Source: Frateuria soli
GTDB taxonomy: Bacteria > Pseudomonadota > Gammaproteobacteria > Xanthomonadales > Rhodanobacteraceae
NCBI RefSeq assembly: GCF_021117385.1
Contig: NZ_CP088252.1
Span: 1,922,001-1,986,000 of the forward strand
DNA length: 64,000 nt
Direction of reading: 5' to 3'
Made by a program: the position numbers and the translations under genes. Below are positions 43,957-46,969 of this stretch, piece after piece; positions within the stretch are counted from its first letter, which is position 1; every line of letters starts with the position of its first letter. Below the pieces are notes generated by a model that ran no database searches, was not told where the DNA came from, and was given only the letters and a program-made list of their open reading frames with translations.

Positions 43957-45786
43957 TCAGGCGATCACGATTCCTTCGCCCTGCTTGCCCGCCACCACGC
44001 AGTTGCGCCCGGCCCGCTTGGCGCGGTAGAGCGCCTGATCGGCGTCGATGAGGAGCTGGCGCAGGTCGTGGCCCGTTTCGCGGGTGCAGGCAACGCCGAA
44101 ACTCGCCGAGATGCGGATGCCAGGCTCGGCCGCCGAACTCAGCTGGGCCACGCTGTGGCGGATTGCCTCCGCGCGCTCGATGGCGCTGTCCATCGAGCAC
44201 TCGGGCAACAGGATGCCGAACTCCTCGCCACCGAGGCGGCCGAACACGTCGGTCGAACGCATGTGGGCCTGGCAGGCGGTCACCGCCTGCCGCAGCACCA
44301 GATCGCCCATCGCGTGGCCGTGGGTGTCGTTCACCAGCTTGAAGTGGTCCAGGTCGATCAGCACCAGGCAGGCGCCCCGTGCCGAGCGCTGCACGTAGCG
44401 CAGCACCTGTTCGGCTTCGCTCATGAAATGCTTGCGGTTGAAGATGCCGGTGAGGCTGTCGCACTGGGCCAAGCGCATGAACGCGAGCTGCGAACGCTTC
44501 AGGCGCAGCAGCCACAGGCCGATCGCCAGCAGCCCCAGTGCCAGCATGGCGATGTACAGCCGGCTGGCCTCCACCGCCTTGCGGTCAAGCGCCTGCCTCA
44601 GCTGCAGGATCTTGTTCTGCTTGTCCAACGCGTCGACCTGCACCTTCTTCGCCTGCACTTGCTGCTTGACGATCTGAAAGGCCAGCGCCTTGGCGCTGAC
44701 GTCGTCGAGGTACCCCTTGTCGGCCTCCATGTAGCGCCTGTGCCAGTCCAGCGCGGACTTGAAGTCGCCGCGTTGCTGGTCGATCTGGTAGAGGGTCCTG
44801 CAGGCCATGCGCAGGGGATCGGTGAACTCTCCGGGCGCACTCGCCTTTACGGCCGCAAGGGCGTAGGTTCGCGCCTTGCCCGACTGTCCCTGGGCCAGGT
44901 ACGCCTGCGCGAGCAGTGCGTCAAAGCGCAGGGTGGTGATCAGGTACCGGTCATGGCGCACGCTCGCATAGTGCTTCTCGAGCATGGCTGCAGCCTCGGC
45001 CGGATACCCGGCCTTGATCTGCACACTGGCCATATCGGCGCGCAGCGCATTGGCGAACACCGACTCGCCAGCCCGGGCACACTCGTCGATGGCTTCTTCT
45101 GCCTGCGGGTCGTGCTTGCCCAGTTGACCGCCGCTGTAGCGCGCGTGCTCGATGAAATACGAGGCCTTGCACGCGGTCTCCCCCGCCGGGATGACGTCCA
45201 GCATCTGCCTGGCGTAACTCGCACCGAGATCGTACTGGCCCGCCGCGGTCAGCAGCTGGGCAATTTCGCCCAGACCCTGCCACCGCAGTTCACGGCCGCT
45301 GATCCGGGGCAGTTGTTCGATCAATTGGTTCAGCTGGACGAACGCATCCTCGTAGCGGTGCACCGCTCCGAGAACGTTGACCAGCGTTGCCGTGGCGCGG
45401 AACCGGAGCGCCGGGTCCGGCGCCTCGCGGATGATGGCCGTCAGCGAGGCCCGCGCGGCACGGTAGTCTCCCAGGTAATCGAGCTGCCATGCATCCAGGT
45501 ACCTCAGAAGGAGGCGCTGCTGGTCGCTGAGCCGGGCTTCGCGAAGGTGCAACTGGTCGAGAAGGGAAACGAAGGTCGGGTTGTCCGACGCTTTCAGGTG
45601 GTCCGCCCGCACCAGCATCCGGTTGGTTTCAGCGGACTCCGGCACGGCGGACGCGATGACCGGAGCAAGGAAAAGAGCCAGGCAACACGCGCTGCCCGGC
45701 AACCAGAGCCGGCTCCGACGAGGTCCAGACAGGATTCGCGCCACAACGGGAAGTCGCAATCGATACCGGTCAGACGGCGCTATCAC
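43957..45786 (-). CDS. TPR-type sensor with active-looking GGDEF domain (diguanylate cyclase)
   Basis: 609 residues from a GTG at 45786. A signal/anchor segment (LWLPGSACCLALFLAPVIASA, ~27-47) leads into ~340 residues of helical TPR-like repeats in the periplasm, a coiled coil (~375-400), a membrane helix (ASRLYIAMLALGLLAIGLWLL) and a GGDEF domain with the intact signature GGEEF (RLGGEEFGILLPE) and DLDHFKLVNDTHGH. It should make c-di-GMP in response to an outside signal. The start overlaps the 3' end of the small precursor gene by 17 bases; later GTG/TTG starts at codons 10 and 15 are possible. Confidence 0.87.
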   Translation of the reverse strand: MIAPSDRYRLRLPVVARILSGPRRSRLWLPGSACCLALFLAPVIASAVPESAETNRMLVRADHLKASDNPTFVSLLDQLHLREARLSDQQRLLLRYLDAWQLDYLGDYRAARASLTAIIREAPDPALRFRATATLVNVLGAVHRYEDAFVQLNQLIEQLPRISGRELRWQGLGEIAQLLTAAGQYDLGASYARQMLDVIPAGETACKASYFIEHARYSGGQLGKHDPQAEEAIDECARAGESVFANALRADMASVQIKAGYPAEAAAMLEKHYASVRHDRYLITTLRFDALLAQAYLAQGQSGKARTYALAAVKASAPGEFTDPLRMACRTLYQIDQQRGDFKSALDWHRRYMEADKGYLDDVSAKALAFQIVKQQVQAKKVQVDALDKQNKILQLRQALDRKAVEASRLYIAMLALGLLAIGLWLLRLKRSQLAFMRLAQCDSLTGIFNRKHFMSEAEQVLRYVQRSARGACLVLIDLDHFKLVNDTHGHAMGDLVLRQAVTACQAHMRSTDVFGRLGGEEFGILLPECSMDSAIERAEAIRHSVAQLSSAAEPGIRISASFGVACTRETGHDLRQLLIDADQALYRAKRAGRNCVVAGKQGEGIVIA

Positions 45787-46039
45787 CGCCAGGGGGCAAT
45801 TCCTCGCCTTCCTCCCCGTCCGCCGGCGCCTCTTCCTCTTCGCTCGGCATGATCACGCTGAACTGGGCCCCCGCCCCCATCAACGACTGGAGCTCGACGC
45901 TATCGCCCGACAGCATCGCCGCGCGCACGGTTTCGTCGATCCGTTCCGCCGCCAGCACCCGCGCCAGTGCCTCCCGAGGCGCATCGCGCAAGGCGGCGTC
46001 GCTCCCGATCCTTTCGAGGATATCGATCACATCCGTCAT
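45770..46039 (-). CDS. Probable split-borosin precursor peptide (borA-like)
   Basis: 89 residues, start at 46039 with a strong AAGGAGGGG ribosome site. Residues ~4-57 are predicted helical (IDILERIGSDAALRDAP..., IDETVRAAMLSGDSVELQSLMG), matching in spacing the borosin-binding domain of Shewanella SonA (its AVMTGDMEKLKTLSG aligns with AAMLSGDSVELQSLMG at the same positions). After it comes a short hydrophobic patch S-V-I-M-P (61-65), the expected core, then a very acidic Glu/Pro/Gly tail (SEEEEAPADGEEGEELPPGG). The gene follows a SonM-like methyltransferase by 66 bases. I infer that backbone amides around Val62-Met64 are N-methylated. Confidence 0.7.
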   Translation of the reverse strand: MTDVIDILERIGSDAALRDAPREALARVLAAERIDETVRAAMLSGDSVELQSLMGAGAQFSVIMPSEEEEAPADGEEGEELPPGGDSAV

Positions 46040-46105
46040 CAGTGTCCCCTCCTTCGATGGCCGGTGTCCGGTACCGCCCCCGCGGCAACCGTACGCACTA
46101 GCCGA

Positions 46106-46969
46106 TCATAGCCTGCTTCGCTGCCGTTGAGCGGCCGCAGGCAAAAAGTCCTGTTGCCGGGTCGGATCCCGCTCCGAAGCGGCATCCAGTGCCGCCAGCC
46201 GCGTCCGGATTTCCTCGTCTGGCTCCATAGCCTGCGCCGGCCGGATAGCCAGGGTGTCGGCCATGTCCAGTTCCGCCCAGGGCAGCGCGCGCAGCGTCGT
46301 GCGCTCGATCCGCGGCTGGCCAATCGGCAATGTCGCGGCCTGGTAGATGATCACCTCGTGCTCCAGCGGATAGTCGCGCGCCAGCACGTCGACCAGCACC
46401 TGGCGGTACGCCGCGCCGGTGGAAAAGCGCTTCAGCGATCGGTCGCCCGCCAGGCCGGCCTGCCACAGGATCAGCCACGCGCTCGGATCGATGCGGCGAC
46501 GGTAGATGAGCAACTGGCTCGCCTCGAAGTGCTGGCAACCGCAGGTTCCCGGGTCGATGCCAAGGTCGGCGTAAAGGCAGTCCTCGGCCGAGATGCCCGG
46601 CTCCATGCGCGCGTGGTAGCCCTCGCTGCGGGCCAGTTCGATGGCCTTGTGCGGCACCCATGCGAACACCCCGGGGTGGCCGTAGAACACGCCGCAGACA
46701 CGCCTGCCCGTGCGCACCTGGACGAGCATCGCCTCCACCATTTGCCGATATGTGCGCATGCGCGATTTGCCATGCGCGTAGTACGGCTGCAGGCTGCGCA
46801 CGTCCGCGTGCATGCGCTGCAACCAGCGCTCGACCAGGCCGTCCGACACGCCGGCGAAGACCACGTCCGCCTGTTCGATGTAGCTGCGCGCCAGCGGGCT
46901 GATGTGCGAGCCCAGAGTCATGCCGATGCCGACGCAGGCCAGGCGGCCGGCGGGTTGGTGTGTACTCAT
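46106..46969 (-). CDS. SonM-like peptide backbone alpha-N-methyltransferase (split borosin)
   Basis: 287 residues from the start at 46969 behind GGGAG. Tetrapyrrole-methylase fold: LACVGIGMTLGSHIS (SAM loop, ~10-24), ARSYIEQADVVFAGVSDG, RTYRQMVEAML (Arg72, Tyr74), GVFYGHPGVFAWVPHKAIELA (~93-113), MEPGISAEDCLYADLGIDPG (~122-141) and FEASQLLIYRRRIDP. These blocks follow Shewanella oneidensis SonM closely, not the CobA/CbiX-type enzymes, and no cobalamin or haem genes are near. SonM methylates backbone amides of its separate precursor SonA. The last ~40 residues (EPDEEIRTRLAALDAAS...) are hydrophilic and extra. Confidence 0.85.
   Translation of the reverse strand: MSTHQPAGRLACVGIGMTLGSHISPLARSYIEQADVVFAGVSDGLVERWLQRMHADVRSLQPYYAHGKSRMRTYRQMVEAMLVQVRTGRRVCGVFYGHPGVFAWVPHKAIELARSEGYHARMEPGISAEDCLYADLGIDPGTCGCQHFEASQLLIYRRRIDPSAWLILWQAGLAGDRSLKRFSTGAAYRQVLVDVLARDYPLEHEVIIYQAATLPIGQPRIERTTLRALPWAELDMADTLAIRPAQAMEPDEEIRTRLAALDAASERDPTRQQDFLPAAAQRQRSRL

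Follow-up and report, generated by a model that had tools for sequence, protein, structure and literature searches.

What is the methylated peptide of a bacterial borosin for? As far as the literature that we covered goes, the question is open: work by Cho et al. and by Imani et al. is reported to have shown type IV borosin clusters to be widespread in bacteria and to have defined types V-X (PMC11285071), and as of 2021 no final natural product had been assigned to any type IV pathway (PMC8429565). Here we examine a borosin locus of Frateuria soli, lying in a stretch of 64,000 nucleotides (contig NZ_CP088252.1, positions 1,922,001 to 1,986,000; hereafter the window), where three consecutive minus-strand genes encode a split-borosin methyltransferase, its putative 89-residue precursor and a diguanylate cyclase with a TPR sensor domain. 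An earlier, sequence-only reading of this DNA had described the first two genes and overlooked the third, in whose light the system probably means something else. We give about an even chance to the overall reading that the three genes form a split-borosin operon equipped with a receptor-like effector of its own, the borosin being a signal. The conserved partner cyclase makes the role of such a peptide testable through cyclic di-GMP (c-di-GMP).

The argument begins with gene order. A single scan for enzymes closely related to that of the window confirmed 95 loci, of which the best 80 were analysed; these are not independent, as related species are included and two Lysobacter loci (L072, L073) are identical. 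A precursor gene stands directly downstream of the enzyme in all 80 (79 by hidden Markov model (HMM), the last by eye), and the order methyltransferase, precursor(s), cyclase is kept in 77, namely 76 by HMM together with L133, whose precursor was found by eye. In the three exceptions a contig end cuts the cyclase (L064), the contig ends 443 nt past the precursor (L105) or there is no cyclase (L091). The gap between precursor and cyclase has a median of 9 nt and is no longer than 300 nt in 122 of 124 cases; at L193 and L196 the cyclase only seems to come before the precursor, an artefact of first starts that make the frames too long. Two cyclases are present in 10/80 loci, and in eight of these ten each cyclase is preceded by a precursor of its own. 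Beyond the three genes, the clusters of open reading frames (ORFs) found in the 80 loci are limited to particular lineages. We regard a functional link between precursor and cyclase as probable.

Co-occurrence was followed in a hand-picked set of 50 genomes from the family. The sensor domain is present in all 43 that have the enzyme and in none of the seven that lack it. It lies within 8 kb downstream of 67 of 69 methyltransferases and, counted from the other side, 76 of 92 sensors lie within 8 kb downstream of a methyltransferase. Fifteen of the 16 remaining sensors were inspected (that of G169 lies 3.4 kb upstream of an enzyme), and at eight of these fifteen loci (L196-L199, L201-L203, L209) a precursor is found directly upstream of the cyclase, with no methyltransferase in about 10 kb. 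Two of the eight, L198 and L202, come from the same genus as the window and are syntenic with it by their hemerythrin and aldo/keto reductase genes, with no adjacent methyltransferase; because their genomes retain one methyltransferase elsewhere, methylation of such orphan precursors in trans is possible. In a class-wide draw of 369 genomes, with at most five first-look candidates scored per genome, the sensor was found in three, all among the nine with the enzyme.

The 287-residue enzyme is confirmed by its homologies as a split-borosin backbone N-methyltransferase, with methylation activity predicted. In a phmmer search SonM matches best (1.3e-75) with other borosin methyltransferases ranking behind, the OphMA-type fused fungal borosins at 1e-49; all 25 PDB sequences matched at E <= 0.01 are borosin enzymes, and Pfam recognises TP_methylase at 1.6e-19. 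Identity to SonM is 51.2% (129/252 aligned positions), and the SonM residues Y58, R67 and Y71, shown to be important for catalysis (PMC8429565), correspond to Y64, R70 and Y74. The claim of the sequence-only reading that the enzyme is SonM-like is thus borne out by the match and the kept catalytic residues. All 15 Shewanella genomes searched hold two such enzymes, a SonM orthologue (67-78% identical to SonM) and a more distant one (51-54%); these second enzymes are 61-64% identical to that of the window, which thus belongs to a sister group of SonM. This grouping rests on the identities, since a FastTree tree of 40 rows, although it places the SonM orthologues with PDB SonM and apart from the other Shewanella enzymes, has unreliable rooting and no support values.

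The small gene was likewise read correctly as a SonA-like precursor. Its profile matches SonA over positions 1-59 (E 2.5e-5), an AF2 model folds residues 1-54 into the five helices of a borosin-binding domain, and precursors stand directly downstream of the enzyme in relatives. SonA is also the best match by fold, though with a Foldseek E that is not significant, and the borosin-binding domain matches the clasp region of OphMA-type proteins as well. Enzyme and small protein together are almost certainly a borosin biosynthesis pair. The core had been placed at S61-P65, and the position fits a conserved motif: P65 is invariant across 32 aligned precursors, and the probable core aligns with the region holding L63 and I65, the methylation sites of SonA (PMC8429565). 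P65 itself, however, lacks an amide NH for methylation, so that any methylated sites should lie at or before M64. In the window the probable core, short and hydrophobic and at about residues 60-65, is followed by 24 more residues, whereas that of SonA (62-71) is the C-terminal end. The long acidic tail that the sequence-only reading contrasted with SonA does exist, but it is a family trait rather than a local oddity: across 126 precursors D+E make up on average 38% of the tail and 16% of the opening 50 residues. Among related precursors, L052:2590-6180 holds eleven precursor ORFs between one methyltransferase and one cyclase, most without an acidic tail, and in Steroidobacter/Povalibacter (L076:7414-7845, L080:7458-7889) a long Lys-rich tail replaces most of the acidic one.

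The third gene product combines a predicted signal sequence, an extracytoplasmic TPR domain, one transmembrane (TM) helix and a GGDEF domain (Pfam 7.8e-44) with the catalytic motif GGEEF and an RxxD I-site. Among 117 homologous ORFs, a set in which a few loci are represented twice, GGEEF is present in 117/117, the I-site in 101, a TM helix before GGDEF in 116 and an early hydrophobic stretch in 82. The cyclase should therefore be active, with c-di-GMP synthesis predicted, and its sensor should be extracytoplasmic; two cysteines of the TPR domain, C206 and C236, are invariant in 40 aligned proteins, a pattern that would fit a periplasmic disulfide. Hydropathy topology predicts the TPR domain outside the cytoplasm and the precursor inside. 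The TPR domain is modelled by AF2 with a pLDDT of 92.6, and its best Foldseek matches are LGN (top), RapH, Rap-CSF, NprR-NprX and the phage phi3T Rap with its pheromone, the last four being peptide-binding TPR proteins.

From the conserved pairing of precursor and cyclase we suggest that the borosin is read by its partner cyclase, and the odds that the cyclase is the receptor of the mature peptide seem to us evenly balanced. By homology, which is strong at this step, a SonM-like dimeric methyltransferase would bind the five-helix domain of the precursor and methylate core backbone amides just before P65, proceeding from the N- to the C-terminal side. The leader and acidic tail would then be cleaved off, in the window species by a protease encoded elsewhere and in relatives perhaps by a pepsin-like protease of the cluster, a GNAT enzyme possibly acetylating the new N-terminus. 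The small N-methylated peptide would leave the cytoplasm through an exporter or by permeating the membrane, and binding to the periplasmic TPR domain of the downstream cyclase would alter the output of c-di-GMP from its cytoplasmic GGEEF domain. The borosin would accordingly serve as a self-sensing or kin-sensing signal rather than as an antibiotic. A broader proposal, to which we give somewhat less than even odds, is of Gram-negative signalling from ribosomally synthesised and post-translationally modified peptides (RiPPs) to c-di-GMP, in which N-methylated borosins are dedicated signals for paired TPR-sensor cyclases, precursor and receptor are inherited as a unit and one methyltransferase may serve several pairs in trans.

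What is observed here is the identity of the genes, their order and conservation, their pairwise duplication and their co-occurrence; several other observations weigh against the signalling proposal. The steps from methylation and cleavage through export to binding are inferred, as is the direction of the effect, and the precursor has no signal peptide, nor is there an exporter near the locus. Two of the 69 methyltransferases have no downstream sensor, one of them (L212) with three precursors; seven of the 15 methyltransferase-free cyclase loci have no detectable precursor; and the other six enzymes of the class-wide draw (33-42% identical) have neither precursor nor cyclase nearby. The likeness of the TPR domain to Rap proteins is generic to TPR folds, LGN being best overall, and a PDB profile search returned generic TPR proteins (best GPSM2, 3.5e-6), Rap-type or arbitrium receptors making up 8/46 of the matches. 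In 104 pairs the core and the TPR domain did not covary more than descent explains (partial Mantel -0.05, null s.d. 0.04), these being drawn from 123 distinct pairs, of which 11 were dropped as no Pro-plus-acidic core was recognised and 112 remained; the raw r(core,TPR) of 0.33 is below the 0.54 of r(core,GGDEF) and the 0.55 of r(core,methyltransferase).

Adjacency could, moreover, mean that c-di-GMP controls the pathway. Were the cyclase to sense some other cue and switch borosin production on through c-di-GMP, the same adjacency data would result, and the negative covariation would be in keeping; a gene that merely regulates the pathway should remain beside the enzyme, however, whereas precursor and cyclase are kept together with no methyltransferase close by (8/15 loci) and duplicate pairwise, and we consider this explanation rather unlikely. 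It is less probable still that the precursor or its methylated form belongs to the cyclase as a dedicated subunit, or as a partner that stabilises it, with no small peptide released. Tight one-to-one pairing, the conserved helical domain with its acidic tail and a window locus without protease or exporter would all suit such a role, but the predicted topology puts the TPR domain and the precursor on opposite sides of the membrane, and some relatives' clusters encode a pepsin-like protease and a GNAT. An antibiotic-like or metal-binding borosin, beside which the cyclase would be a frequent but functionally separate neighbour, is suggested by the Cys found among the seven residues before Pro in 84/126 precursors and by the abundance of GGDEF genes (22 in the host genome); the window core has no Cys, though, and the gene order in 77/80 loci, the specific sensor subfamily, the co-occurrence and the pairwise duplication make this very improbable. 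Finally, the idea of a cobalamin or siroheme C-methyltransferase next to a chance ORF, prompted by the generic Pfam TP_methylase match and by weak hits to NCBIfam cobJ/cobI that stay far under their cut-offs, is rejected, to the extent that sequence allows, as next to impossible in view of the SonM match, the 25/25 borosin PDB matches, the kept catalytic residues, the SonA profile match and the conserved precursor.

The signalling proposal can be set beside several known systems. SonM/SonA of Shewanella oneidensis, a type IV split borosin, likewise has a separate methyltransferase and borosin-binding-domain precursor side by side (PMC8429565), and shares with the window the catalytic residues, the five-helix leader and, for the probable core, the leader-to-core distance; at the 8/8 Shewanella SonM-orthologue loci examined, in species other than that of SonM, a TPR-GGDEF gene (24-33% identical to the window cyclase) also follows the precursor. 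The window system differs in that its enzyme falls in the second group, a long acidic tail follows its core, P65 takes the place of the methylated I65 and the side clamp carries a 3-residue deletion. OphMA-type borosins share the methyltransferase fold and family, and their clasp region is matched by the borosin-binding domain, but they are fungal and have the precursor fused to the enzyme.

A second comparison is with the RRNPP-type TPR pheromone receptors Rap, NprR, PlcR and AimR. There, as proposed here, an all-helical TPR domain binds a short peptide encoded by a neighbouring gene, and Rap and NprR structures are among the best 50 Foldseek matches, a similarity of fold that is generic to TPR proteins. 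The window cyclase is not classed as an RRNPP receptor: its TPR domain is predicted to be extracytoplasmic and is joined through a TM helix to GGDEF, and the peptide would be N-methylated.

The case built on pairing, and with it the signalling proposal, is our own. The Figure 1 legend of PMC11395268 explains 'GGDEF' for a GGDEF domain drawn in a borosin architecture; beyond it we found no link between borosins and diguanylate cyclases in the literature covered, which lacks the main split-borosin surveys, and an earlier account is possible. If the proposal is true, backbone N-methylation would be a route to peptide signals that are stable and perhaps cross membranes, and an otherwise orphan family of sensor cyclases would gain known inputs.

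Maturation had been left open by the sequence-only reading for want of an adjacent peptidase or transporter. None indeed lies at the window locus, which has neither a pepsin-like protease nor a GNAT gene, but relatives' clusters do carry these two. With accessory genes counted by tblastn (E <= 1e-3) and position, a pepsin-like (PF00026) gene lies upstream of the methyltransferase in 22/80 loci, mostly within 800 nt and once at 3.5 kb. A GNAT gene separates enzyme from precursor in 33/80 and precedes the enzyme in 15/80; Pfam confirmed 6/6 GNAT, 3/3 pepsin and 1/1 AstE ORFs of those submitted. The pepsin-like protease is a candidate for the leader or tail protease and the GNAT a candidate further tailoring enzyme. 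PF00026 was not detected in the host genome, nor in any of 14 control genomes, so that this is no evidence of absence. The relatives' proteases, many from Shewanella, are likened to shewasins A and D (PMC4814920, PMC2761423) as PF00026 members; shewasins favour hydrophobic residues, shewasin D is mainly cytosolic and the passages covered give no in vivo role (PMC4814920), and a term search of PMC2761423 turned up no gene-neighbourhood or methylation context. Pepsin-bearing clusters would suggest a role for bacterial pepsins. Examples of the pepsin family are L096:3466-5223, L072:4067-5353 and L133:4620-5906, from Lysobacter, Shewanella and Alteromonas relatives, and of GNAT (Acetyltransf_3) L055:6816-7376 and L093:5330-5893. 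An AstE/aspartoacylase-like gene directly after the cyclase in 22/80 loci (e.g. L124:9515-10561; Rheinheimera, Arsukibacterium and Alkalimonas relatives) may have nothing to do with the pathway.

Table 1. Genes and predicted features of the borosin locus, in window positions.
Feature	Positions	Strand	Basis
Split-borosin alpha-N-methyltransferase, 287 aa (P0002)	46106..46969	-	phmmer, Pfam, SonM alignment
Borosin precursor, 89 aa (P0001)	45770..46039	-	Profile, fold and family conservation
Borosin-binding domain, residues 1-54, five predicted helices	45878..46039	-	AF2 model md7b5e90c9593; SonA profile match, positions 1-59
Probable core Q59-F-S-V-I-M-P65	45845..45865	-	Invariant P65 column; SonA alignment; inferred
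Acidic tail (follower), residues 66-89	45773..45844	-	Family-wide D+E enrichment
TPR-GGDEF diguanylate cyclase, up to 609 aa (P0003)	43957..45786	-	Pfam GGDEF; conserved neighbour
Cyclase signal-sequence-like hydrophobic stretch, residues 27-46	45649..45708	-	Hydropathy only
Predicted extracytoplasmic TPR sensor domain, residues 48-402	44581..45645	-	Alignments of 40, AF2, Foldseek
Cyclase TM helix, residues 410-428	44503..44559	-	Hydropathy
Cyclase GGDEF domain, residues 440-595	44002..44469	-	Pfam

Within the locus the methyltransferase and precursor genes are 66 nt apart, and the cyclase start candidate, GTG at 45786, overlaps the precursor stop by 17 nt, an alternative start lying slightly further in. 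On the 5' side of the three genes the first neighbour encodes a DUF418 membrane protein and the next a hemerythrin; an aldo/keto reductase gene lies on the 3' side. The nearest named record to the window enzyme, at 92% identity, is from a Frateuria metagenome-assembled genome.

The host genome, a single contig of 3.49 Mb, was searched with precursor profile A1, which gave two significant places, one at each of the two borosin loci. A further match, at E 0.126, was discounted, and orphan precursors beyond these loci were rejected by the same search. The window cyclase has 17 further matches in this genome, 16 of which align only from residue 369 on; the only full-length paralogue sits at the second borosin locus. 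That locus is complete and lies outside the window (G000:C1:2176001-2178950, L034), with an enzyme 66% and a TPR-GGDEF cyclase 43% identical to their window counterparts, and the core of its precursor ends in QMP, followed by an acidic tail.

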